Position numbers and translations under genes: made by a program
The notes under the pieces: model-generated
Told to the model about the DNA's origin: nothing
Database searches by the model: none
The model's input: the letters and a program-made list of their open reading frames with translations, nothing else
Virus record (IMG/VR): IMGVR_UViG_3300032241_002034
Location: 1 to 50,124 of that record
Reading direction: 5' to 3' (one strand)
Length of the DNA stretch: 50,124 nucleotides
DNA from: a virus
Part shown: piece after piece, positions 560 to 33,698 of the stretch
Layout of the letters: every line of letters starts with the position of its first letter
How positions within the stretch are numbered: the stretch's first letter is position 1

Positions 560-1336
560 TTATATGTAAATTTTACCTTTAATCCCCGGTACCATTTTTT
601 TAATTTGGGCTTTTGTGTATTTTTGAGCAAGTGGAGTATTATTTAACCAAAGATCACCACCAACTTGCAAATTGTCAGGTAGTGATGTGATTGGAGTACC
701 ATTCAAATCAAGATTACCACCAACTTCTAAATTGTTAGGTAATGATGTGATTTTAGTACCATCTAAATCAAGATAACCACCAAATTTTAAATTGTCAGGT
801 AATGATGTGATTTTAGTACCACTCAAACCAAGATTACCATCAACGTGTAGATTGTCAGGTAGGGATGTAATTGGAGTATTCCTTAAATAAAGACTACCAC
901 CAACTTTTAGATTGTCAGGTAGCGATGTGATTGGAGTATTATTCAAATAAAGATGACCACCAACTTGCAAATTGTCAGGTAATGATTTAATTTTAGTTTG
1001 CTGTAAATCAAGATAACCACCAACTTTTAGATTGTCAGGTAGTGATGTAATTGGAGTATTCTGTAAATCAAGATTACCACCAACTTCTAAATTGTTAGGT
1101 AAAGATGTGATTAGAGTATCGTCCAAAAAAAGATCACCTCCGACTTTTAAATTGTTTGGTAGAGAGGTAATTGGAGTACCAGTTAAAATAAGATCACCTT
1201 CTTCTCCGTTTTTTATATATTGTTGTATTTTTTTTTGGGCAGTAATAAGATGATTTTTTTGACGTTCTTCAGGAGAGCGTCTTGGAACTAATATTTTATT
1301 AGCTTCTTCTTTTAGTATGTCTATTAGTTTAATCAT
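560..1336 (-). CDS. Leucine-rich-repeat-like solenoid protein with tag
   Basis: A 258-residue protein. Residues 1-10 (MIKLIDILKE) are the ten-residue tag with L8-K9-E10. After a basic helical stretch, residues about 47-237 are nine near-perfect 20-residue repeats of the form ITSLPDNLxVGGxLxLxxT, which should fold as a leucine-rich-repeat-like beta solenoid. Residues 238-258 are a basic tail. Such repeats usually bind protein, but no ligand can be read from the sequence. The repeats are also conserved at DNA level with a 60-base period, so copy number may change by recombination. It is the second of a run of tagged genes. Confidence 0.8.
   Translation of the reverse strand: MIKLIDILKEEANKILVPRRSPEERQKNHLITAQKKIQQYIKNGEEGDLILTGTPITSLPNNLKVGGDLFLDDTLITSLPNNLEVGGNLDLQNTPITSLPDNLKVGGYLDLQQTKIKSLPDNLQVGGHLYLNNTPITSLPDNLKVGGSLYLRNTPITSLPDNLHVDGNLGLSGTKITSLPDNLKFGGYLDLDGTKITSLPNNLEVGGNLDLNGTPITSLPDNLQVGGDLWLNNTPLAQKYTKAQIKKMVPGIKGKIYI
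626..1198 (-). repeat. 60-bp tandem repeat array encoding LRR-like units
   Basis: Nine near-identical 60-bp units in frame inside the gene at 560-1336. Each unit holds the coding equivalent of SLPDNL-VGG. Most differences between units are single bases, so the array looks recently amplified or homogenised. Confidence 0.85.
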
Positions 1337-8371: not shown

Positions 8372-8950
8372 TTAAGTTGTTTCTTCTTCAGGTGTTGGTG
8401 TTTCTTCTTCAGGAGCCGGAGTTGGAGCTGGAGCTGCGCCTGCTGGAGGTGCTGTTGTTTCAGGACCAGCTGCTGCTAATTCAGGACCTAATTCTGCTGC
8501 TGATGTACCCGGTGCTTCAGGAGCTGGTGCTCCAGGAGCTGCTGGTGTAGCAGGTGCTTGTTCTTTACCCTCTGATGGAGCGTAATTTAATTCTAATAAG
8601 TCTGCTATAGCTTGAGATGCACTTTCTTGGTGACCAATATTCATCATATTGTATTTCTTACCAGCTATTTTTACATCCCATTTTTTATTACCTAAATACT
8701 TAATATTAAAATCTTGTCCATTAATTAAATCAACTTTGAAAGTTGTTGGTTTTGGAGCAATAATTTCAATATTGTTAACGTAGCGACCAAAAGCAGGAGA
8801 CATTAATTCTTCTATTACCTTTTTTAAACCAGGAAAGCGGTGCACCAAGTACATCGCTTTTTCTGCTTTTCGCTGTTGTTCTTCTTGCTCTTTAAGAGCT
8901 TTTTTAACAGCTACCTTAACGTATTTTTCTAATATTAGTTTTTTGTTCAT
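8372..8950 (-). CDS. Tagged protein with Ala/Pro-rich tail
   Basis: A 192-residue protein. Residues 1-21 form a basic amphipathic helix (MNKKLILEKYVKVAVKKALKE) with tag-like I-L-E and L-K-E sites. Residues about 30-125 are an alpha/beta domain including FKVDLINGQDFNIKYLGNKK. Residues about 128-192 are a low-complexity Ala/Pro/Glu tail that ends PTPEEETT. Start and stop touch neighbouring genes (overlap of one base with 8950-9423), indicating an operon. Function unknown. Confidence 0.65.
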   Translation of the reverse strand: MNKKLILEKYVKVAVKKALKEQEEQQRKAEKAMYLVHRFPGLKKVIEELMSPAFGRYVNNIEIIAPKPTTFKVDLINGQDFNIKYLGNKKWDVKIAGKKYNMMNIGHQESASQAIADLLELNYAPSEGKEQAPATPAAPGAPAPEAPGTSAAELGPELAAAGPETTAPPAGAAPAPTPAPEEETPTPEEETT

Positions 8951-9423
8951 TATATTTCTTCTGATTCTTCAGCTTCTTCTTCAGCTATAGATTCTTTAAC
9001 GCTATGAATGTAATCTGATGCTAATGTAATATAAGCTGCTATCCAACCTGGAAGTTCATCTTCTGGGCTGATTAATTGATAAAGTTTAGAACCAGCCATT
9101 AACATACTGCGTAATTCAGCTTTAGCCATTTCACCATTAGGACCTTGATTTTCCTTCATTGCCATTGCTTTAGCAATTGCAGCACGGTGTTTCATAATAT
9201 ATTTATCTTGGCTATTTACTTTACCATCGTTATTAACGTCAGCGTCTTCATGGCCAACAGGATCTAATGTTTCGTGAACGCCCATAGCTTTAGAAGTTGC
9301 AATTGCACCTGCTTTAGCACTAGACATACCTTTTTTCTTTAATTTATCATATATCTTACCACGCTTCTTTATTTCAGAAGATGTCATATGTGCTTCAGAT
9401 AATAAATTAGATAACTTTATCAT
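8950..9423 (-). CDS. Tagged EF-hand-like calcium-binding protein
   Basis: A 157-residue protein. The tag is residues 1-10 (MIKLSNLLSE, L8-S9-E10). A basic helical segment follows (YDKLKKKGMSSAKAGAIATS, about 25-44). Residues 62-73, DVNNDGKVNSQD, fit the 12-residue EF-hand/dockerin loop with Asp/Asn ligands at positions 1, 3, 5, 9 and 12, so calcium binding is likely. The C-terminal third is helical and acidic. Start and stop overlap both neighbours by one base. Function unknown. Confidence 0.7.
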   Translation of the reverse strand: MIKLSNLLSEAHMTSSEIKKRGKIYDKLKKKGMSSAKAGAIATSKAMGVHETLDPVGHEDADVNNDGKVNSQDKYIMKHRAAIAKAMAMKENQGPNGEMAKAELRSMLMAGSKLYQLISPEDELPGWIAAYITLASDYIHSVKESIAEEEAEESEEI

Positions 9424-9999: not shown

Positions 10000-10782
10000 T
10001 TACCATTTACGACAAGACCAATAGTTGGCTTTCCAACGTGGTCCCGGGCTATCACAATGATGTCTTTTACGATATGCATTACGATGTTTAGGATTGTTAC
10101 GTTTAATATTCATGCCGTGAGCACCAAAATTAACTTTAACAACTTTACCCTTATTATTTTTAACGTATACTTTAAATTTTTTAGTATCACCTTGCATTGG
10201 TTTACCTAACGTTACTTTTCTACCATGATATTCAGCTTCAGTAATACAATCACAAGTAGCTTCAGCTAAGAATGTTTGATATTCTTTCATGAATTGAATA
10301 AACTCTTTTAAGTCTTGTTCGTTTTCAACATCATATTCATCTATATCACCATATAAAGGACCATTATCGTGTCCACATTTATGACAAACGTATGTATCTT
10401 TACCTCCGTTTTCTATTTCCCATTGCCATCCACAATCTTCACAAGTAACAGTTGTTTCTTCATTTTCGTTAATAGGTACACAATTAGGTACCATTCTACC
10501 GTTTTTTTCTTTTTCACCAATTTGTTTATAACCTTTCCAACATGGTGATTTTTCAGCTAATATTTCGTCTATTTCACTTGTTAAATATTTTACAGCACCT
10601 GTTTTTAAATCAGCTTTAAGATTGCCTTTGTACGTTACAGGTGTATCACTTCCTACATATTGTATTGTAGCTTCTCCAGTAGTGTAAAGATTTTTAGCGT
10701 TTACTACTTTGAATTTTTTACCATTCTTATCTACGTAATAATCTACTCGATCTTCATTTAATATGTTTAGTAGCTTTATCAT
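10000..10782 (-). CDS. Tagged mosaic protein: zinc ribbon plus DUF5872-like C-terminus
   Basis: A 260-residue protein starting at ATG 10782; longer frames upstream only read through the previous gene. Residues 1-10 (MIKLLNILNE) are the tag. Residues 81-103 hold CWKGYKQIGEKEKNGRMVPN and CVP, a motif I recognise from many marine phage proteins. Residues 114-136 are a zinc ribbon, C114-x2-C117 and C133-x2-C136. Residues about 185-260 (KKFKVYVKNNKGKVVKVNFG to KANYWSCRKW) resemble DUF5872, also phage-associated and of unknown function. The whole looks like a fusion of phage cassettes. Confidence 0.75.
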   Translation of the reverse strand: MIKLLNILNEDRVDYYVDKNGKKFKVVNAKNLYTTGEATIQYVGSDTPVTYKGNLKADLKTGAVKYLTSEIDEILAEKSPCWKGYKQIGEKEKNGRMVPNCVPINENEETTVTCEDCGWQWEIENGGKDTYVCHKCGHDNGPLYGDIDEYDVENEQDLKEFIQFMKEYQTFLAEATCDCITEAEYHGRKVTLGKPMQGDTKKFKVYVKNNKGKVVKVNFGAHGMNIKRNNPKHRNAYRKRHHCDSPGPRWKANYWSCRKW

Positions 10783-10783
10783 A

Positions 10784-11035
10784 TTAATTTGTTGGCTCCC
10801 ACCAATCAGAGCAATATTCTTTAGGGTTAAACGGTAATACTTTTTGGCCTGACCATTCTTGATAATGTTCATTTCCACATTCCCACTCACCTAATTCTTC
10901 ATTATTTTCAAAATAGCGGCAATTAGCACAACAAGCACCTCCTTCAGGTACTCTCATTGCTGGTTTATGGTCTTTAGGTAATTCGTACTTACCTCCACCA
11001 TATTCTTCTTTTAATAAGTCAGTTAATTTAATCAT
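10784..11035 (-). CDS. Tagged small cysteine protein, HiPIP-like motif
   Basis: An 83-residue protein. The tag is MIKLTDLLKE with L8-K9-E10. Cysteines at 35, 36, 39, 53 and 75 lie in the pattern PEGGACCANCRYF, WECGN, EYCSDWW. The spacing and the final YCSDW resemble high-potential iron-sulfur proteins, so a [4Fe-4S] cluster is possible; a zinc site is the alternative. If packaged, it would be a metalloprotein carried in the head. It abuts the next gene with a one-base gap. Confidence 0.65.
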   Translation of the reverse strand: MIKLTDLLKEEYGGGKYELPKDHKPAMRVPEGGACCANCRYFENNEELGEWECGNEHYQEWSGQKVLPFNPKEYCSDWWEPTN

Positions 11036-11310
11036 TAGAAGTCAGGTTCGTTGTTTGTATGAATATTAGCCATTGGAGAACCTTTATCAACACCTTGTCT
11101 ATCATATTTGGTATGATGTTTTTCATGCGCTGAATCGGCATGCATCATTATGTCTGAGGTGTATTTTGCTATAAATTCAGGATCATTTGTTTCAAGGATT
11201 TTTTCGCATAACTCTTTAATTTTGTTAATATGATCACGCCAATGCATTTGATGATATTCGGGATCGGGGTGGTTTTCTGTTTCCACCAACATGTCCATTA
11301 GTTTAATCAT
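11035..11310 (-). CDS. Tagged small histidine-rich helical protein
   Basis: A 91-residue protein beginning with the ten-residue tag MIKLMDMLVE (L8-V9-E10). The rest is helical and rich in His (HPDPEYHQMHWRDHINKIKE and ADSAHEKHHTKYD), which hints at metal binding but fits no motif I know. It overlaps the upstream gene by eight bases and the downstream one by one, so it is part of an operon. Confidence 0.65.
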   Translation of the reverse strand: MIKLMDMLVETENHPDPEYHQMHWRDHINKIKELCEKILETNDPEFIAKYTSDIMMHADSAHEKHHTKYDRQGVDKGSPMANIHTNNEPDF

Positions 11311-12693: not shown

Positions 12694-14721
12694 TTACATG
12701 TCTTCAAATTCATCGTTATAATTTTCTATAACCATGACATCTACTTTAATAGGATTAGTAATATTAAATACTTCTTTTTCAGGAAAAAGACTTAATTTAG
12801 TTATAAAATTTGGATTAAAATACAAATCAGCATCACCTGCTTTAGCTCTCATTACTGCTGGTTCTCCTCCATTACGCTCTGCTGTAGATACAGCAAAAGT
12901 AGCTGCAGTATAGTAATCTGTACTCCATGATTGTACTTTACGCTTGGAAGAATATTCTTGATTTAATATTATTTCACCTTGTTTATAAAATTCAGTTTCG
13001 GAACCCTTTAATAATTTTTGTAAATTTGATTTACTTATTGCTGTTCCTCTGTAAATATAACTTGTATCTGGTATTTTAGGATCTCCTATTTCTGGATATT
13101 CTCGTTTTATTTGTTTAAAAATAGGAATATATGAGTCTAAATTAATATTACTATACGTTGATGATTCAGAGTTAACATATTTTTTTAAAGTATTAAATAA
13201 AGCTCTTTCAGCAGGAGTATCTATTTCTTTTTCACTATCATACCATTTTATATCAACTCCAGATTCTTTATCCCCAAAAAGGTAATTCCCGAATTTTTTT
13301 TTTGCCTCGTAAATTTCAGTATGCTGTTGACCGAATTTTCTTAATAATACACCCGCTTGAGCGTTTGCTTCATTTTCAATTTCAGATCCAGTTTCACCAC
13401 TTCCTTGCTCAATTCTACCTTCTTCATCTTGTTTACGATGTACTAATTCATGTGCTAATGTTCTTAACGCATCAGCCATTACTCTATGACCAAAATATAG
13501 CCAAATTGACTTACTATTTGGATCAAAATATCCAAATGTATGTAATTCTTTAGCTTTTTCAGCATCATGAGATATAGTTAATTTAGGTACAGATTTTAAA
13601 CCTAATTCTTTAATAGCAAACTTTAAAAAAGCATGTATGGTATTATTTTGGTCTTTATGTAGTTTACCTTCAGTAATTGGCGGTGAAATACTACCATGCA
13701 TTTTCATATTAATATTACCTTGTAATACAGTAGGAATAGAACCTAATGCTCGGTAAATAGATAATATTACCTCACCTCCAACTAACCAATAACCTTGATT
13801 GTAATTTAATACTAAAGGTAAAGGAATATCATCACCGGATTTAATAGCATCAATATATGGTTTAGGATCAATACCTAATTTTAATGAATGTTGAATAGCA
13901 TCATCTAATGTTTTCATTTTATATGACTTACTATTCTGTAAGTTTTCCCACATTTCATCTGATAATACTACTTCATTTCCTGTTTCAAAAGCATATTGAA
14001 TGTCTGGTATAGGTATATTAAATGTTTCAGATGTTTTTTCAATCTTAGGCATTGCTTTTAATACTAAATCTTGATAAGGGCTAGTACTAGCTTCAGGTTG
14101 AGATTCATGCATTGAACCAGCTGTGTAATTCATGTATCTAGGATCTATCTTAGGTAATTCAGGTTGAATTTGTTTATCAATAGCAGCTAAAAAATCTATT
14201 ATAGAAATGCCTTCAGGAACATGTTCTTCAAAGTCTTTATCTTTATTATTTATAGCATTTTTTAAACCAAGATCATGTGCATCTTCTAATTCACTAGCGT
14301 CCATTAATTCTACGTTAGGATATTTATGCATACCTTTATAACGTTCCATTTCACCTCTACTTAAAGCAATAATGAATTTATCTTTTGGATTTGATCTTAC
14401 AATATCTAATATTTCAATCATAGGAGTACTACTTGAAATATCTACTTCGATATCTTTAGGTAATAAATCCTTATATAGATTCCAAACATTAACACTATGG
14501 TCAGCGGTAACACCGCCTTGACTATCAGGAGTTATTAATACTACTACTTGATTTGCTTTTTCACCTAATTCTCTAGCAACCTCAAAATTGCCTTTATGAG
14601 GTGGTTTATTTGTTGTTGGATATATCCCCACAACAGAACGTGCTTCTGTTTCTAGTAAAGTTGAAGCTAAGTATTTACCTAATTTTAGGCCAAGTGAGTC
14701 CACTTTATTCATAATTGCCAA
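12694..14721 (-). CDS. Multidomain protein: nucleotidylyltransferase-like, ParB-like, HExxH peptidase and ADP-ribosyltransferase
   Basis: A 675-residue protein with four visible parts. Residues 1-24 are a tag ending T-L-L-E. Residues about 29-150 resemble nucleotidylyltransferases (GIYPTTNKPPHKGN, a variant of HxGH). Residues about 297-335 (PLPLVLNYNQGYWLVGG) resemble ParB/Srx-like proteins. Residues 420-455 contain the zinc peptidase motif H424-E-L-V-H428 with a candidate third ligand near E447-E451. Residues about 550-655 fit an R-S-E ADP-ribosyltransferase: YRGT with R558, SWST at 598-601, and E648-K-E650. T4 Alt is likewise a packaged, tag-bearing ADP-ribosyltransferase that modifies host RNA polymerase. 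Packaging and injection are inference. Confidence 0.8.
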   Translation of the reverse strand: MAIMNKVDSLGLKLGKYLASTLLETEARSVVGIYPTTNKPPHKGNFEVARELGEKANQVVVLITPDSQGGVTADHSVNVWNLYKDLLPKDIEVDISSSTPMIEILDIVRSNPKDKFIIALSRGEMERYKGMHKYPNVELMDASELEDAHDLGLKNAINNKDKDFEEHVPEGISIIDFLAAIDKQIQPELPKIDPRYMNYTAGSMHESQPEASTSPYQDLVLKAMPKIEKTSETFNIPIPDIQYAFETGNEVVLSDEMWENLQNSKSYKMKTLDDAIQHSLKLGIDPKPYIDAIKSGDDIPLPLVLNYNQGYWLVGGEVILSIYRALGSIPTVLQGNINMKMHGSISPPITEGKLHKDQNNTIHAFLKFAIKELGLKSVPKLTISHDAEKAKELHTFGYFDPNSKSIWLYFGHRVMADALRTLAHELVHRKQDEEGRIEQGSGETGSEIENEANAQAGVLLRKFGQQHTEIYEAKKKFGNYLFGDKESGVDIKWYDSEKEIDTPAERALFNTLKKYVNSESSTYSNINLDSYIPIFKQIKREYPEIGDPKIPDTSYIYRGTAISKSNLQKLLKGSETEFYKQGEIILNQEYSSKRKVQSWSTDYYTAATFAVSTAERNGGEPAVMRAKAGDADLYFNPNFITKLSLFPEKEVFNITNPIKVDVMVIENYNDEFEDM

Positions 14722-15536: not shown

Positions 15537-16474
15537 AAATTAAGTTTTCTAAGTAATAAGCTCTGAAAGTCAAGGGGCTGAGCTTGTTCAATACAGTTTA
15601 AAAATCGTTCAAATCCAATTTCATTTGCGTCTTTACCATCTAATTCTACTAAATAAACCTCTTTACCATATGACATTAATTCTTCAGCATATTTTAGAGC
15701 ATTTTTAATAGCATCCGGATCTAAAGCTACATAAATTCTATTTACAGATGATTTAGCTAATTTAATCATTAACTTTTCATGTATCACCTTTCCAAATAAC
15801 GGTATAACGTTACGCTTGACTGTTAACGCATCAAACATTCCTTCAATAAGAATTATAGGAGCGTCCCAATTTATAAACAATTCTAAACCAATTGCTGATT
15901 TAGCATCTATAGGTGGGTTTTTATATTTTTGCATTTCTTCTTTATAGGCGCGTGCTATAAAGTAATTTAGTGAGCCATTTGCATCATAAGAGGGAATTAT
16001 AACCCTATGACTATAAGGACCTTCTTTACAAAAACCAATATTATATTTTGTTATATCTAGTTCTGTTAATCCACGTAAGCGTAGGAACTTAAGTGCGTGT
16101 TTAGATTCAATTTGTGCTACTCTATCTTGTATAAATGTCTTATGATCGTGTAGTGAAATAAATTCTTTAGGTAATGCTATTGCGATTTCGCGTTTAGCTT
16201 CTTCTTTACCAGGTACTATAATTAATCTTAATTCTGCTAATTTATCAGCGGGTACTTTAGCGCGTTTAAGGAGAGATCTAATGGTTTTTCCTTTTGCCTC
16301 ACACACCCAACAATGCCAAGGATTCTCGTTTTTTGCGTTTGTTACGCAGTTGATTTCCAGTTTATTCTTATGATGAGTACAAAACGGGCATTTGAATGCA
16401 TAGTTACCGCGACTAGTCTTGCTACCAACACCCAATACGGATTCTAATAAAATTAATAATGCAGCATTTTCCAT
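15533..16474 (-). CDS. 61: DNA primase, T4 gp61-like
   Basis: A 313-residue DnaG-type primase, close in size to T4 gp61 (about 340). The N-terminal zinc domain has C29-x2-C32 (KCPFCTHHK) and C55-x2-C58 (WHCWVC). The TOPRIM domain has E211 (LIEGMFDALT) and D252-x-D254 (YVALDPDA). No helicase domain is fused, as expected in T4-like phages where gp41 is a separate protein. It makes RNA primers for lagging-strand synthesis. It lies directly upstream of the PD-(D/E)XK nuclease. Confidence 0.88.
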   Translation of the reverse strand: MENAALLILLESVLGVGSKTSRGNYAFKCPFCTHHKNKLEINCVTNAKNENPWHCWVCEAKGKTIRSLLKRAKVPADKLAELRLIIVPGKEEAKREIAIALPKEFISLHDHKTFIQDRVAQIESKHALKFLRLRGLTELDITKYNIGFCKEGPYSHRVIIPSYDANGSLNYFIARAYKEEMQKYKNPPIDAKSAIGLELFINWDAPIILIEGMFDALTVKRNVIPLFGKVIHEKLMIKLAKSSVNRIYVALDPDAIKNALKYAEELMSYGKEVYLVELDGKDANEIGFERFLNCIEQAQPLDFQSLLLRKLNL

Positions 16475-19043: not shown

Positions 19044-19673
19044 TTAACAGTTAATTCCTGTAGTAGATCCTACAACGGCTGTTAAGCCATTATAATTATA
19101 AGTACTTGTTAGTGGTCCTCCACCTAACATATCAGATTGAGCTATATAATTTATACCTCCTGTGTATTTGTCTCCAGAAGTATCTATATAAACTGTAACT
19201 CCATGTGCTATACTAATATTTGGTGCTTGTAAATAGAATAATTGAGCACCTACACTACAAATATCCCCTATTGTATTACCATAGTTTAAGTATACAGCGT
19301 TATAAGTTGGAGCAGCAGTTGTAGTTGTACTTGTTGTTGAAGTTGTTGTTGTTGTTCCTACAAATGTAGTTGTAGTAGTTGTAGTACTAGTTGTTGGAGC
19401 AGCTGTTGTAGTTGTACTTGTTGTTGAAGTTGTTGTTGTTGAAGTAATACCAGTTATAGATAAATCAACAGAACTATAACAAGTTCCTGTTGAAGTAACT
19501 CTAACAGTACTAGCTCCGTTTGGCACTAAAGTAGAAGTATAACCAGCTAACAAAGCAGTTCTGCTAATTCCTGTTTCAAAAGGAATAAGAAATCCATCTA
19601 TATTAGAATATAAATTAAACGGTCCTGTACTAGGACCTGCTACTGTTAATGTTATAGTTATTGTTTGTGCCAT
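19044..19673 (-). CDS. Adhesin-like protein with poly-threonine linker
   Basis: A 209-residue protein in three parts. Residues 1-75 are a beta domain starting MAQTITITLTVAGPSTGPF. Residues 77-127 are almost only Thr, Ser and Ala-Ala-Pro (TTTSTTTTAAPTTSTTTT). Residues 128-209 form a beta module with two cysteines, ending GSTTGINC. This module matches those at the C-terminus of the 991-residue neighbour. It is probably a small receptor-binding or decoration protein of the virion. The linker is a candidate for O-glycosylation by the adjacent transferases. Confidence 0.7.
   Translation of the reverse strand: MAQTITITLTVAGPSTGPFNLYSNIDGFLIPFETGISRTALLAGYTSTLVPNGASTVRVTSTGTCYSSVDLSITGITSTTTTSTTSTTTTAAPTTSTTTTTTTFVGTTTTTSTTSTTTTAAPTYNAVYLNYGNTIGDICSVGAQLFYLQAPNISIAHGVTVYIDTSGDKYTGGINYIAQSDMLGGGPLTSTYNYNGLTAVVGSTTGINC
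19293..19445 (-). repeat. Threonine-codon microsatellite-like tract
   Basis: About 150 bases of ACA/ACT/ACN triplets coding for the Thr-rich linker. The near-repetitive triplets may allow in-frame length change by slippage. Confidence 0.7.
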
Positions 19674-19686
19674 TTATATTATTTTA

Positions 19687-22662
19687 TTAACATTGTGTTG
19701 CTCTTAAACTCATAGCACCGTTAGAAGCTATTGTCCAAGTATCAGCATTAGATGTTGTAGCTAACACATATCTAGGACCTACTATTACGCTACCATCTGA
19801 GTTTCTAGCTATCATACCTGCTGAGAAATTATTTCCATTAGTTACAAAAGTAGAATGATCTGCAGAACTTAAATATATGTTAGTAGTACCTGTTACACTA
19901 CATGATGTTATATTACTTAATGTATTAGCAGCATTACTAAATGTTACTGGAGGTAATGTTGTTGTTGAAGTTGTTGTTGTAGCAGGACAAGTTGTTTGAC
20001 TAGCTAAAGTACCCTCGCTGTCTGTTACTACATAAACTACACCATTTCCTGAGTAATAGTAGTCTCCATTATTTACAGCTATAAAGTTAGTTGTGTCTGT
20101 ATAGAATTTAGTAACACCATTTACAAGTGATCCTTGATAGAATATGTTTGTTGGAGTTCCACTGTAACAAGCGTTACCTGGAGTGTTACCAAATTTTACA
20201 CTTAAATCTGTCCAAGCCATTGTTGTTGTAGTAGTTGTTGTACTAGTAGTAGTTGTTGTAGTTGCAGGACAAGCAGCATAAGTACCTGATTGAACTGTAG
20301 CTACGCCTGTAACAACGTTAACTTCCCAAGTATATCCACCATTAGAAATATAAATTAATCCGCTATGAGCCATTAAATCACCACCTGTAAATTGAGTACA
20401 GTTAATAAACAAGTTAGCATTACCCTGAATTGTACTAGTAGTAGATGGAGAGTAACAAGCTTGTGATGGTGTACTACCATATCCTACTGTATAAGGATAA
20501 GTCGGAGCTGCTGTAGTAGTTGTAGTAGTTGTTAGACTAGCACAAGTACCACCTGAAGCTATTACACCAGATCCACCACTTACAAGGTAATAATTTGTAC
20601 CATCTGAATAGTAGCCATTAATAGCTGGAGTTGATAAATTACTGTTTTGATATAAAGCATTTCCTACTTGTAAAGTTGCTCCATGAGTCATGTAATAAGT
20701 TACATTGACTGTAGCTGCACAAGCTCCTAATCCAGTAGCGTTTTCAGCTGTTAAAGTATACATAGCAGGCGCTAACGTAGTAGTAGTAGTTGTAGTACTA
20801 GTAGTCGTTGTTGGAGCAGCTGTTGTTGTAGTTGTAGTAGTTGGTGCTAAAGTAGTCGTTGTCGTAGACGACCCTGTATAAGCAGTTGTTGTTGTAGTTG
20901 TGGTACTAGTTGTCGTAGTATTAACCGAATAGGGTATATTAAAATTATAACAAGTGTAATGTTGTCCTGCTCCACCTACATTAGGGAATTGCATATCTGG
21001 ATATGATACAGAAGGTGTAACTTGTGTTGCTGTTAATGCTACAAAGTCATAAGTGAATATAAGTCCAGCTTGTGTAATTCCATAAATGTTTGTTCCATCA
21101 TAGTATAACGCATTAGGAATTTGGTATGATGACGATAAAGTTATCTGTGCTAATAATGTTGTTCCTGAATACAATTGAATATTACCGTATAGTGTATCAG
21201 GCTTAGTATAAGCAATAACAGTTTGACTATTACTTGTATTATATAGAATAGATGTGATGAATGAGTTATCACTAATACTCATATATGGTGTAGCAATGTG
21301 TGTAGTTAAATTATACTCATAAATATCTGATACAAGACTTGGTGAAACACCTACACTATTAACAACAAATAATGTGTTACTATCTTTAAATGCTATACCA
21401 TATCCAGCATTATTACTTGGGTATGTATTATCCCAAATTGTAAATTGTGAGTCATATGTCAATGAGAATGGAGATGTTGTATAGTTGTATACATTATAGT
21501 TTCCACAATGATCTACAATATACATTTTAGAACCATCCATTGCAATTTGTCCAGACACACATCCCGCATGAAGAGAAGCTAGTTCTATATTTGTATGCGT
21601 TACAGAATCATATAATGATAATTTGTTTGTAGTTTCACGAGCTAAAAATATAGAACAATCTGGAGCTATAATAGTTGTTGTACTAGTAGTTGTGCTAGTA
21701 GTTGTAGTGTAAACAACAGCACTACCTGCTAATGCACAGTTTGCAACTGTTGTAGTTGTTGTTGTAGTAGAAGTTGTAGGTGCATTAACAACTACAAATA
21801 CATTTCCATAATTGCTAGTTAAAACACATCCACTTCCACAAGTACTAGTTACTGTGTATTGAACATTGTAATTTCCAGATGAAGTAGTATTTAAAGTAAT
21901 AGTACCATTTGAATTTACAGTATAATATTGAGCATTACTACCTGATAATACAACCGATCCTGTATTTAATGTACAAGATCTAGCTACATCATTAGATAAA
22001 ATATTAATAGTTTTTGGGCTATCTGTTGTAAGAAAACTAGCTGTATTATTATAAGCTAAAGGAGGTAAAGGAAACAAAGGTTGGTAATCACTATTAGTAA
22101 GTACAACTATTCCGTGAGCATAATAAATATTACCTACAAATGTTGGAATACCAGCATAATCGTAGATATTTCCTTGTCCATCATCTTTTATATTAAAAGC
22201 AGAAGATGATAAATTAAAACTATTAGGTAATAATTTAGACCCATAAACAGATCTATTTACCTCTAATACTAAAATAGAAGCATTTGCCCCTGTAGGGAAG
22301 TTTTGGACTAAATTAGGATTAGTATTATAATTAAAATAAGAGCCAGTTGGGCGTTGTTGAGAAGCAGATACATAAGTATCTACATTAAACATTATAGACC
22401 CCGTGTTTAATAAACTACCACTAAATGATTGATAAAACATATGATTAATAGAATCATATACTAATCTTTCATATTGACCATAAGTTTTAGGATCGATAGA
22501 TACATCGTTAGATACAAAAGTACCTGTTATGTAGGTACCTTTATATACGTTGAAGTAGCTATCTCCTCCATTAAAACAAGTATACGGTAGGTTCCAATGT
22601 TTGTTTGCAACATATGGAACTGTCGTAACATCGGGTTTAAATAATTTTTTGAACGCTGACAT
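19687..22662 (-). CDS. Modular tail adhesin with poly-threonine linkers
   Basis: A 991-residue virion protein. Residues about 1-200 are related to the 22666-23643 protein (shared YGQY-x-x-LV and R-S-x-Y motifs) and should attach it to the tail. Residues about 200-292 are a beta-sandwich. Residues about 333-575 look like a beta-propeller (KMYIVDHCGNYNVYNY, DSNTLFVVNSVG and similar blades). Four cysteine-containing modules follow (about 634-707, 721-798, 815-893, 905-991). Thr-rich linkers (294-305, 318-330, 582-631, 710-720, 800-814, 895-903) separate the parts. Probably a receptor-binding fibre; the exact folds are inference. Confidence 0.75.
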   Translation of the reverse strand: MSAFKKLFKPDVTTVPYVANKHWNLPYTCFNGGDSYFNVYKGTYITGTFVSNDVSIDPKTYGQYERLVYDSINHMFYQSFSGSLLNTGSIMFNVDTYVSASQQRPTGSYFNYNTNPNLVQNFPTGANASILVLEVNRSVYGSKLLPNSFNLSSSAFNIKDDGQGNIYDYAGIPTFVGNIYYAHGIVVLTNSDYQPLFPLPPLAYNNTASFLTTDSPKTINILSNDVARSCTLNTGSVVLSGSNAQYYTVNSNGTITLNTTSSGNYNVQYTVTSTCGSGCVLTSNYGNVFVVVNAPTTSTTTTTTTVANCALAGSAVVYTTTTSTTTSTTTIIAPDCSIFLARETTNKLSLYDSVTHTNIELASLHAGCVSGQIAMDGSKMYIVDHCGNYNVYNYTTSPFSLTYDSQFTIWDNTYPSNNAGYGIAFKDSNTLFVVNSVGVSPSLVSDIYEYNLTTHIATPYMSISDNSFITSILYNTSNSQTVIAYTKPDTLYGNIQLYSGTTLLAQITLSSSYQIPNALYYDGTNIYGITQAGLIFTYDFVALTATQVTPSVSYPDMQFPNVGGAGQHYTCYNFNIPYSVNTTTTSTTTTTTTAYTGSSTTTTTLAPTTTTTTTAAPTTTTSTTTTTTTLAPAMYTLTAENATGLGACAATVNVTYYMTHGATLQVGNALYQNSNLSTPAINGYYSDGTNYYLVSGGSGVIASGGTCASLTTTTTTTAAPTYPYTVGYGSTPSQACYSPSTTSTIQGNANLFINCTQFTGGDLMAHSGLIYISNGGYTWEVNVVTGVATVQSGTYAACPATTTTTTSTTTTTTTMAWTDLSVKFGNTPGNACYSGTPTNIFYQGSLVNGVTKFYTDTTNFIAVNNGDYYYSGNGVVYVVTDSEGTLASQTTCPATTTTSTTTLPPVTFSNAANTLSNITSCSVTGTTNIYLSSADHSTFVTNGNNFSAGMIARNSDGSVIVGPRYVLATTSNADTWTIASNGAMSLRATQC
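20770..20919 (-). repeat. Longest threonine-codon tract
   Basis: About 150 bases of Thr triplets with Ala-Pro interruptions, coding for residues 582-631 of the adhesin. Similar shorter tracts recur through the same gene. Confidence 0.7.
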
Positions 22663-30347: not shown

Positions 30348-30947
30348 TTAAGCTAATAAAGCATAATATTCGTGGAAATGCTTAACGCGATCTTCAAGAC
30401 CAATTGTACCACCATTAACACGTTTAGTGATAGATGTAACAACAGCATCAGTAGCACCGCCGTCTGCTAATTTTTGTAATCCATTTTTATGGAAGAACCA
30501 CGCTGCTGATGCTAATGGGTATTTAGTTGCTACTAAATCTGGTGTAGCTACTGTATCTTCACCAATTGCCTCAGCGAATAATTTATAATTATCATGCCCA
30601 GTTAATTGAATAAAACCACGACCGTGGAATTTCCAACCATCTCCTGAAGCTTCAGGACCATTACCCATTCTACCACCATATACTTTGTTAGCGATTTTTT
30701 CTGGTTTGCGCTCATAAGGTAAAGCAGCTGCTTCATCAGCAAAATACTTATGGAAAGTACCTACTAAACCTTTAGCTCCGTAATTTAAATTTTCTTGTAC
30801 TAATTTGAATCCACCTGATTCATGTCCACATTGAGCTAAAAAATGAGCTAAACGTAATGGAGTGTTAATTTCAAATTTGTCTTGTATTCCTGGGATTTGA
30901 GCAATAACGCTATCAGGAATGTGTCCTTTTAGTTTTTCTAAGTTCAT
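30348..30947 (-). CDS. Endolysin, glycoside hydrolase family 19
   Basis: A 199-residue GH19 lysozyme/chitinase-type enzyme. HFLAQCGHESGGF with E43 (general acid) and the nearby E52 (ENLNYGAKGL) are the expected catalytic residues. GDGWKFHGRGFIQLTGHDNY is the family signature. It cleaves peptidoglycan at lysis. There is no signal peptide or membrane anchor, so a holin is needed for export; no clear holin adjoins it. It sits between the Ntn-hydrolase and the tail genes. Confidence 0.92.
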   Translation of the reverse strand: MNLEKLKGHIPDSVIAQIPGIQDKFEINTPLRLAHFLAQCGHESGGFKLVQENLNYGAKGLVGTFHKYFADEAAALPYERKPEKIANKVYGGRMGNGPEASGDGWKFHGRGFIQLTGHDNYKLFAEAIGEDTVATPDLVATKYPLASAAWFFHKNGLQKLADGGATDAVVTSITKRVNGGTIGLEDRVKHFHEYYALLA

Positions 30948-30956
30948 ATACTTGTT

Positions 30957-31850
30957 TTATTTATGTAAACCTGTTTCGCCGAACTTTACTTTTATTTTTG
31001 GTTCGTAGCCTTTAGGTAATTTATTTTCATATCCAGCAAACTTACTATGTTCATCATCATACTCTAATTCAAACGTAAGTTCAGTTAAGTTCATTTTAAG
31101 TTGAGACGTTGTATTCATACCATACTTATTATCTGTTCTATAAGGATTGTTATAATTATCATCTGTTATAGATTTAGATAAAATTGGTAAAATTTGATCT
31201 TCACTTGTTACATCTTCTAATTCGGTTTCTGCTATTTCTCTTCTAGATATAGATGATGCTCTTTTAGGACCACTAGTATAACCAGCGTCTTTGTAATAAA
31301 TACCATGATTTGTTCTAACAAGCACCTTAGTATCTGGTTTCATTTTAGTAATAACAGGTAAGTGTTTGCTTGTAAGTTCAATTACAAAAGTATAGTTAGG
31401 GCTAGAAACAATAGTTTCACCTTTAACTCCTACTTCTTTAGGATCTTCACCTTTATAAGAAGTAATAGCACGTACTGCCTCAGATAATTTTCTATGAGCC
31501 AATGCGTGTCTAATTTTCATACCATCATAAGATGGAGAAGGTCCTTTCTTTTTATCTTTATCCGCATCTGGAGGCATTAATCCTTGAGCTTCATCTTCAG
31601 CAACCATTAAGGAAGCATTGACAATACCAATTCCATATTCATTCATTCCTTCAGAATAGTCAGTAATCTCGTCATATAAATAACAACACTCAATATCATC
31701 AATTAATTCATGAATTATTTTAACAGTAGGGTCATAAGCACGATCCCTGTTTTTAGCTAATATTCTATCACCATCTATTTTAATAGCAGCAACCACACAT
31801 TCATCAAGTCTAGGCTTAAGGATGTTTTTAACAATGTTTAATAGTTTCAT
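30957..31850 (-). CDS. Ntn-hydrolase (C45/penicillin acylase-like) with cleavable propeptide
   Basis: A 297-residue protein. Residues 1-17 (MKLLNIVKNILKPRLDE) are a basic amphipathic propeptide ending L15-D16-E17, the prohead-protease motif. Cys18 follows at once and heads an Ntn-hydrolase pattern: CVVAAIKIDGDRILAKNRDR, with N34 and D36 matching the conserved N-x-D of choloylglycine hydrolases, then YSEGMNEYGIGIV (65-77). Such enzymes need an N-terminal Cys and hydrolyse amides. Cleavage by the phage protease would expose it. This activation route and the substrate are inference. It lies between gp6 and the endolysin. Confidence 0.75.
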   Translation of the reverse strand: MKLLNIVKNILKPRLDECVVAAIKIDGDRILAKNRDRAYDPTVKIIHELIDDIECCYLYDEITDYSEGMNEYGIGIVNASLMVAEDEAQGLMPPDADKDKKKGPSPSYDGMKIRHALAHRKLSEAVRAITSYKGEDPKEVGVKGETIVSSPNYTFVIELTSKHLPVITKMKPDTKVLVRTNHGIYYKDAGYTSGPKRASSISRREIAETELEDVTSEDQILPILSKSITDDNYNNPYRTDNKYGMNTTSQLKMNLTELTFELEYDDEHSKFAGYENKLPKGYEPKIKVKFGETGLHK

Positions 31851-31859
31851 GTTTTAATT

Positions 31860-33698
31860 TTATATTACGACTCTACCTTGAATATCATTATTAGGATATC
31901 TAACCTCAAATATACTTGGGTCTAACGACGGATAAATATGTCCATCACGTGTGGCCCCTGCAATATCATAAGCATATTGTGAATAAGTTGTATTTGTGCT
32001 ATCATAATTGTTAGTAATATTAATATCTACTACGGCTTGTACACCAACTACTTGTAATAGTGTAGACATTATATCAGAAATTATAATAGGTTGATTAATA
32101 GACCAGTTATTAATATTGAAAAAAGTTTGTAAATTTGTAATACAACTTGTAAGTACATCGTTATTATTATATCCTCTTTGTACTCTTATATCAAAATTAA
32201 TACCTATGTTAATGTAAAATGCATCTTTAATATTAATAGCATCAGTAACCATTCTATATTGGTTAATGTAAGTAGCTAAATTATTTTTTAATGATGTACT
32301 AGCTGTAACTAATTGTTTATTAGAATTATAACCTAATATAAACATATCTAAAGCTAATGGGTTACTAGCGTTAGCGTTAAGACTTGATACAGTTGGTTGA
32401 GCTATATTGTTACTTGTTATTTCTTGTGTAACATATACCTTAGCTATGCTACCATAGTTAGAAGGTAATGATAATGCTCTTACAATATAATCTTCTCGCG
32501 TTACCGCTCTTAATTGCGATTGAAACGCATATAAGGCGTTATTACGCATTTCTTCTACCTCATCAGCGCCTCTACCGCCAGCGGCAGGAGCTGGGTTATT
32601 TGAGGCCAAACTCGCTAATACTTGAGCAGACATACTATTATTTATGTTACTAGGAAAATATGCCCCAGTATTGCTTATTATAGTAATATCATTAGATGCA
32701 ACGTTAGATGTTACACCACCACCAGTAAGATATCTTACAGTAATATTACTACTTGGAGCTAAACCATATTCTTGAGTAAAGAATGTAGATGCAACGTTAT
32801 AGTTTGTATTTAAAGTAGAAATACCAGGTACTAAACCAAAATTAATATTATCTGGTGTAGGTAAAATAGTAGTATCAGATGAGTTAGTTAAGCCTGCTCC
32901 GAATTCTAATTGTAAAGTATCATCAGATAAGAATCTAGTTACAAAACGACGAGGTACTCTTTGATAGTTAACTAAGTAAGGAACACCATCGCTTCCAGAA
33001 TTTGGGTTAGCTACAGTACTTAATACAGTAGATTGAGCTAAATATGGTACTTCATACCAGTTATTATTATTAGCATCAACAGCATCTAAAATTTGTAAAA
33101 TATTATTATCTGTAATAGATGCTACTTGAAATTTTTGTGGAGTAGAAAAAGGTAAAACAATTGAATTAATTTGAGCTGAAATAGCAGTAACTGTTCTTTG
33201 TAATAAAAAATAATCTGAATTTACGAAAGTAACAATATTGTTAGCAACATCAGTAAAATCAACTTTAGTTGTAGTTAAAAAATTAGTTCCAGTACTAGCT
33301 GATGTTAAAGTGGTATTTTGTGGAACAACTAAAGCATAAGTATAGTTAGGTACACTTTGTCCTGCTACTGTTGTAGAAGGAATTAATTGGTATATATCAA
33401 CTAAAACATTTGATGCATGGGATACTTGAGGACGATAACCTAACATATAAGAAAGAGCAATTAAGTTTTCTCTCTCTTTAGCATAAGTTAAAAATGTTTC
33501 TTGTATTTGGGTATCAAGGTAAAAAGATGAAACATCACCAACATATGAAGCCAATTCAATAAATAATGCTCCCGGATTAGCATCCGAAAAGTCATTATAA
33601 TTGTTTGGAAAATAAGTTTGAGCGTAGTTTAAAAGGTTAGTTTTAAAATCGCTAAAGGTTTTATTTAAATAAGATACTCTATTATCTGTTGGTGTCAT
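31860..33698 (-). CDS. 6: Baseplate wedge subunit, T4 gp6-like
   Basis: A 612-residue protein (T4 gp6 is about 660). The N-terminus (VSYLNKTFSDFKTNLLNYA; FSDANPGALFIELASYVGDV) is the characteristic gp6/J-like opening. VEEMRNNALYAFQSQLRAVT, then REDYIVRALSLPSNYG, is the baseplate J-like core. It would form the dimer that links wedges around the hub. It directly follows the gp25 gene, as in other T4-like phages. Confidence 0.87.
   Translation of the reverse strand: MTPTDNRVSYLNKTFSDFKTNLLNYAQTYFPNNYNDFSDANPGALFIELASYVGDVSSFYLDTQIQETFLTYAKERENLIALSYMLGYRPQVSHASNVLVDIYQLIPSTTVAGQSVPNYTYALVVPQNTTLTSASTGTNFLTTTKVDFTDVANNIVTFVNSDYFLLQRTVTAISAQINSIVLPFSTPQKFQVASITDNNILQILDAVDANNNNWYEVPYLAQSTVLSTVANPNSGSDGVPYLVNYQRVPRRFVTRFLSDDTLQLEFGAGLTNSSDTTILPTPDNINFGLVPGISTLNTNYNVASTFFTQEYGLAPSSNITVRYLTGGGVTSNVASNDITIISNTGAYFPSNINNSMSAQVLASLASNNPAPAAGGRGADEVEEMRNNALYAFQSQLRAVTREDYIVRALSLPSNYGSIAKVYVTQEITSNNIAQPTVSSLNANASNPLALDMFILGYNSNKQLVTASTSLKNNLATYINQYRMVTDAINIKDAFYINIGINFDIRVQRGYNNNDVLTSCITNLQTFFNINNWSINQPIIISDIMSTLLQVVGVQAVVDINITNNYDSTNTTYSQYAYDIAGATRDGHIYPSLDPSIFEVRYPNNDIQGRVVI

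Follow-up and report, generated by a model that had tools for sequence, protein, structure and literature searches.

The gene at positions 30957..31850 on the minus strand of the window (the whole stretch of DNA analysed, a virus record 50,124 bases long) very probably encodes the zymogen of a capsid-packaged Ntn-hydrolase, which the prohead protease would activate in trans. On a broader and somewhat less certain reading, it likely belongs to a widespread family of Ntn-hydrolase zymogens in which self-activation has been lost and the capsid-maturation protease of the virus does the activating in trans, so that activity is locked to virion assembly and the enzyme reaches the next host ready to act. 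The preliminary description of this DNA had proposed that the protease maturing the phage head also activates this amidase; the proposal is well supported, and from the sequences and the structural model we infer both the cleavage and the proposed timing of activity, "only in or after the virion". The fold, the position of the nucleophile, the conservation of the site, the co-occurrence with the protease, and the motif common to the capsid protein and other genes were computed. The carriers of the gene are large T4-like phages.

The hydrolase precursor and its predicted fold

The open reading frame, with an ATG at 31850 and a stop codon at 30957, encodes 297 aa in the order MKLLNIVKNILKPR-L15-D16-E17|C18-VVAAIKIDGDRILAK-N34-R35-D36 ... 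E67GMNEYG73; the residues and numbering listed in the preliminary description (RLDE17 followed by Cys18, N34-x-D36, and EGMNEYG at 67–73) are all correct. The product, a C45-like cysteine Ntn-hydrolase precursor according to its match to NCBIfam NF040521, could be divided into several parts, all encoded on the minus strand. The propeptide, residues 1–17 (MKLLNIVKNILKPRLDE; 31800..31850), has a start resembling the tag MIKLxxLLxE found elsewhere in the window and is unfolded, with low confidence, in the model. It ends with the predicted prohead-protease site Leu15-Asp16-Glu17 (P3–P1; 31800..31808), which has the form [LIVMF]xE in 126/126 distinct relatives, compared with L/I-X-E in the rule for T4 gp21 (PMC9026906). 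Cys18 (P1'; 31797..31799), invariant and structurally aligned to known nucleophiles, is the predicted catalytic N-terminal nucleophile, and the predicted mature enzyme extends from it for 280 aa with an Ntn fold according to AF2 and VIA-align (30957..31799).

In the mature part, K33-N34-R35-D36 (31743..31754), invariant in 46/46 aligned sequences, would form the active-site hairpin with the N-x-D of C45 enzymes, a role assigned from knowledge of the family. The motif E67-G-M-N-E-Y-G73 (31632..31652), with E-G-M-N and the last G invariant, lies within the TDWSEGMNE block used to retrieve relatives. R179-T-N181-H-G183 (31302..31316; R, N, H, and G invariant) is probably the region of the oxyanion-hole Asn, given its presumed equivalence to Asn175 of CBAH (PMC3289653), and S199-S-I-S-R203 (31242..31256; S199 and R203 invariant) probably provides a catalytic or substrate-binding Arg. 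Invariant positions in the 46 aligned sequences are Cys18, A32-KNRDR37, E67-G-M-N70, N78, R179, N181-H-G183, S199, and R203; the Ntn catalytic set (Cys, Asn-x-Asp, oxyanion Asn, and Arg) is conserved, its one-to-one equivalence being presumed.

Since the scores of the window protein fall below the curated cut-offs of both NF040521 (C45 family autoproteolytic acyltransferase/hydrolase; E 1.2e-7, 31.4 bits against a cut-off of 85 for the mature protein) and Pfam AAT (PF03417; E 0.0011, 19.2 against 23.2 bits in a single-sequence search), we regard it as a C45 relative and do not file it as a C45 member. Of 47 representative relatives, 46 matched NF040521 and 24 matched AAT. A PHROG search with the window hydrolase gave no match, and a search of solved structures by sequence gave chance-level matches only. 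Membership in an anti-phage-defence family was rejected, there being no PADLOC match.

An AlphaFold2 model of the chain starting at Cys18, computed with 46 related sequences as input, had a mean pLDDT of 92.2 and a pTM of 0.91. Comparison of this model, which is not itself a solved structure, with solved structures by VIA-align yielded cysteine Ntn-hydrolases with Z of 16–21. The best match was CV2077 (3gvz, Z 21.2), followed by the C89 enzymes NAAA (beta chains, Z 20.1–21.1) and self-activated acid ceramidase (Z 20.5), by isopenicillin N acyltransferase (IAT, Z 19.7), and by bile salt hydrolases and penicillin V acylases of C59 (Z 16–18). Residue 1 of the model, i.e., Cys18, coincided with the alignment start at the known nucleophiles human NAAA Cys126, acid ceramidase Cys143, IAT Cys103, and BSH 2. 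The phage protein is therefore predicted, on the basis of this model, to be a cysteine Ntn-hydrolase related to C45/C89 enzymes. The Ntn fold anticipated in the preliminary description was thus recovered by structure prediction from Cys18, and the likeness to penicillin V acylase and choloylglycine hydrolase noted there holds at the level of the superfamily, although NAAA, acid ceramidase, and C45 acyltransferase are closer.

These enzymes differ in the way the nucleophile is exposed. C45 acyltransferases/hydrolases (IAT; NF040521) share the Cys Ntn fold and the N-x-D, TNH, and S..R motifs with the phage enzyme, but their prodomain is autoproteolytic and about 100 aa long, whereas the phage protein has a short propeptide with a protease site. 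NAAA and acid ceramidase are self-activating two-chain enzymes with 14–17% sequence identity to the phage hydrolase. In the C59 enzymes, the Cys is bared by loss of Met or a few residues and, unlike in the route proposed for the phage hydrolase, no virion protease is involved.

Conservation of the predicted cleavage site

An initial scan with the single hydrolase protein retrieved no relatives, and alignments were needed. Scans of viral contigs with patterns derived from the mature part matched 229 to 425 relatives, 80 being kept per scan; among the matches listed, a profile of the mature part placed the nucleophile in 240 loci (some contigs were fetched twice), which corresponded to 126 distinct sequences. 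Retrieval of these sequences was dominated by the mature part, with L/I-x-E not required, and the 47 representatives, selected with the motif in the filter, were left out of the site count.

The Cys nucleophile was present in every complete relative among the matches listed, and the two loci without it end at a contig edge. P1 was Glu in all 126 distinct phage relatives listed, and P3 in the same sequences was Leu (70), Ile (46), Val (8), Met (1), or Phe (1), so that L or I accounted for 116. Cys18 is thus conserved among homologues, as the proposal in the preliminary description requires, and the head-protease motif noted there directly before the Cys was borne out as well: it reads [LIV]-x-E in practically all listed relatives, with M or F at P3 in two. 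No other position of the propeptide was conserved in this set. When one sequence per 60%-identity cluster was taken, P1 was Glu in 15/15 and P3 was hydrophobic (L/I/V/M/F) in 15/15. Site entropy was 0 at P1, about 1.2–1.4 bits at P3, and about 2.5–3.7 bits at P4–P8; composition-based probabilities for the site serve as a guide only, the sequences being related by descent. A chance occurrence of L-x-E before Cys was rejected, since P1 and P3 are constant while P2 and P4–P8 vary freely. A bacterial origin was also considered and dropped: no close bacterial relatives were found in genome contigs or plasmids with phage-like patterns, the only ones used, which distant relatives could escape.

The propeptide can be as short as 4 residues (MINE|C) or exceed 300, long fusions having about 90 to 334, and in all cases it ends in the motif before C. 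In the shortest forms, MINE|C, MKLSE|C, and MKLLE|C, of which several ORFs have a stop codon immediately 5', the propeptide consists of little but the protease motif, which is hard to explain with a self-cleaving prodomain. Propeptides of 4–5 aa also look too short for targeting signals, which counts against the packaging part of the proposal for these forms. No folded prodomain was seen in the full-length model of the window protein, in which a low-confidence helix and linker precede Cys18 and residues 1–10 have a mean pLDDT of 46. A Met-Cys start was found in none of the 126 distinct sequences listed. Such a start would bare the Cys at once via methionine aminopeptidase, and its absence therefore suggests that the delay of Cys exposure is itself under selection.

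In two loci (L021:5973-7799 and L201:2569-3843) a longer precursor ends with the hydrolase; in it, 334 aa with a weak DUF5872 match or 144 aa of basic small modules are followed by LNE|C or LDE|C. These precursors are possible cargo polyproteins.

The prohead protease, the capsid protein, and tagged genes of the window

The T4 prohead protease gp21 cuts after L/I-X-E and takes off N-terminal propeptides of 7–65 residues (PMC9026906). A protease of this type, S77 (PF03420), was detected in 23/32 hydrolase-carrying records, the remaining 9 being also without a gp23 capsid gene, and the T4-type gp23 capsid gene and S77 occurred together in 19/19 gp23-bearing records. The window, a 50-kb fragment, has no head genes of its own and no recognised prohead protease gene, so the presence of the protease is deduced from relatives; in the nearest genome (G001), whose hydrolase is 81% identical, S77 is located at 15934-16353. 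In the phage MA9V-1, the S77 match falls in an ORF whose published name is "Prohead core protein serine protease" (PMC10537231). In the Chryseobacterium phages, the domain opens a very long ORF of about 1,349 aa (OR050627.1 126501-130544 in MA9V-1), and most other phages have a protease of ~200 aa.

In 17/19 capsid proteins, [LIV]xE was present at one aligned place just before the conserved core, with the words LINE|AT, LLNE|ST, LLDE|AT, LLSE|AT, and LVTE|VS. In the capsid proteins of the two Chryseobacterium phages, FINE|AA and FLNE|SI stand elsewhere in the sequence, and the same words occur in the hydrolases of these phages. By analogy with T4, all these would be the sites at which the capsid protein is cleaved.

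Five unrelated genes of the window have a MIKLxxLLxE-like start with Glu at residue 10. They are located on the minus strand at 560..1336 (MIKLIDILKE|E), 8950..9423 (MIKLSNLLSE|A), 10000..10782 (MIKLLNILNE|D; probable true start at 10782), 10784..11035 (MIKLTDLLKE|E), and 11035..11310 (MIKLMDMLVE|T). In the T4 protein IPIII, capsid targeting resides mainly in the first residues, and residues 8 and 10 govern processing (PMC9026906). Judged by their resemblance to T4 capsid-targeting sequences, the five genes probably constitute a capsid cargo set, and the tags would fit a T4-like group of capsid-targeted proteins. The start of the hydrolase, MKLLNIV, resembles MIKLLNILNE and the other four tags, and the shortest relatives (MINE|C) have no room for such a tag. 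Over the leftmost 38 kb of the window, N-terminal LxE was found 20 times versus 11.2 expected (p about 0.001), and no enrichment was seen in the right part. Across the whole G001 genome, 34 occurrences versus 40.9 expected revealed no enrichment, which indicates that the tag belongs to certain genes and does not reflect a genome-wide bias.

Several other proteins of the window have features worth recording. The products of 10000-10782 and 8950-9423, both matching PHROG families 4359 and 38880 (no assigned function), contain [LI]xE-like breaks between small modules, including a zinc-ribbon-like part and a basic C-terminal part, as if cargo modules had been shuffled. The gene at 12694-14721 encodes a protein of 675 aa with LLE|T near the N-terminus, a nucleotidyltransferase-like GIYPTTNKPPHKG, and an HELVH metalloprotease motif; its C-terminal YRGT...SWST part is suggestive of ADP-ribosyltransferases, with structure matches at chance level (E about 1), and the product could be an Alt-like ejected protein. 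The tail-region proteins encoded at 19044-22662 have small domains joined by long Thr-rich linkers (TTTTTSTTTT).

The hydrolase gene itself sits amid tail genes. On its 5' side are genes for gp25-like and gp6-like baseplate wedge proteins, the latter at 31860-33698 (PHROG baseplate wedge matches), and on its 3' side is a GH19-type endolysin gene at 30348-30947. The position between baseplate gp6 and the endolysin, pointed out in the preliminary description, is real in the window but is not conserved: among the relatives whose neighbourhoods were compared, only L062 also has both genes flanking the hydrolase, the endolysin alone adjoins it in L004–L007, and the others have different neighbours. 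This neighbourhood is incidental and carries little information. A functional tie to gp6 or the endolysin was accordingly rejected, and the hydrolase fits the description of capsid cargo better than that of a baseplate or lysis gene.

Proposed activation in trans and alternative explanations

The following sequence of events could be proposed. The short unstructured propeptide probably acts as T4 capsid-targeting sequences do, helping the precursor to enter the prohead core, and would keep the Ntn active site from working by blocking the amino group of Cys18. As the head matures, the S77 (T4 gp21-type) protease would cut after [L/I]-x-E at Glu17|Cys18, yielding a free N-terminal Cys and completing the active site; the enzyme would thus switch on only inside maturing heads. 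The active hydrolase would then travel in the head and probably be ejected with the DNA into the next host, where it would perform hydrolysis (or acyl transfer) of an N-acyl amide, the presumed class of substrate. The nearest folds of the model suggest a fatty-amide, N-acyl-lipid, or N-acyl-amino-acid substrate. Membranes of Bacteroidota, including Chryseobacterium, the one known host genus, contain N-acyl aminolipids, and taken together with the nearest folds this makes lipid deacylation a reasonable first guess at the activity, no more.

Three other explanations were weighed. The enzyme could strip off its own propeptide in cis, as NAAA, acid ceramidase, and IAT do, with [LI]xE reflecting its own specificity. 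Autoproteolysis has been described as a hallmark of Ntn-hydrolases (PMC9140057), NF040521 is named "C45 family autoproteolytic", and a cis-cleavage specificity could in principle keep the same motif. Nevertheless, self-activation is unlikely, since the full-length model has no folded prodomain of ~100 aa, a propeptide of 4–5 residues offers hardly anything that could be positioned for cis-cleavage, a hydrophobic P3 with Glu at P1 is the rule of the head protease, and the capsid protein of these phages, like their unrelated tagged genes, has the same motif.

Removal of the propeptide by a Glu-specific protease of the host or another one of the phage, with activation in the cytoplasm, is the least probable of the three, even though the window fragment lacks a recognised prohead protease gene. 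Against it stand the identity of the motif with that of the capsid protein and the unfailing presence of S77 in the carriers that have the capsid gene; nor are we aware of any general protease of the bacterial cytoplasm with such specificity. Alternatively, the motif could be a signal for capsid targeting or trimming only, the protein being an inert internal head protein in which the exposure of Cys is incidental; T4 internal proteins bear such signals, and some of them are not known enzymes (PMC9026906). Such a role is highly improbable, given that the cut would fall exactly before the nucleophile in 126/126 listed sequences despite the free length of the propeptide, and that little or no variation is seen at the Cys, N-x-D, R-T-N-H-G, and S..R positions, which means that catalysis is probably under selection.

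The proposed trans-activation by the head protease has its closest parallel in the T4 internal proteins and Alt, which are cut by gp21 and, like the hydrolase, have a short N-terminal propeptide ending in L/I-x-E; the likeness extends to the T4-type gp23 and S77 of the hydrolase phages and to the 10-residue tags of the sister genes. The difference is that in the phage hydrolase the cut would create the nucleophile. To our knowledge, Cys at P1' is not documented as a T4 cleavage residue, and no T4 cargo enzyme is known to us to gain a catalytic group by the gp21 cut. No paper joining a prohead protease and an Ntn-hydrolase was found in the literature searched, which does not prove its absence. 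The parts are known, and as far as the literature was searched, their combination, a T4-type cargo enzyme in which removal of the propeptide creates the catalytic residue, is new.

Ntn-hydrolases are described as self-activating, and in these phages a protease working inside the virus head seems to have taken over the task of exposing the nucleophile. If true, this would be a clean timing device, the enzyme staying inactive in the cell that makes it and working in the particle or the next cell. On this reading, taking off a capsid-targeting sequence could activate a protein as well as trim it, and a simple sequence rule becomes available with which to look for further zymogens and ejected effectors of phages.

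The proposal can be put to a direct test, since two cultured Chryseobacterium phages, MA9V-1 and MA9V-2, carry the hydrolase gene. A search for published virion proteomics or N-terminal sequencing of any carrier, these two included, found none. Their products have about 41% identity to the window hydrolase and are probably annotated seven codons short (L002:11953-11973, L003:11953-11973). Reading from the upstream ATG gives MLNTFTNMTSANNNEFLNE|C and MLKTFTNMTSADNNAFINE|C, in which the propeptide has drifted while L/I-x-E is kept.
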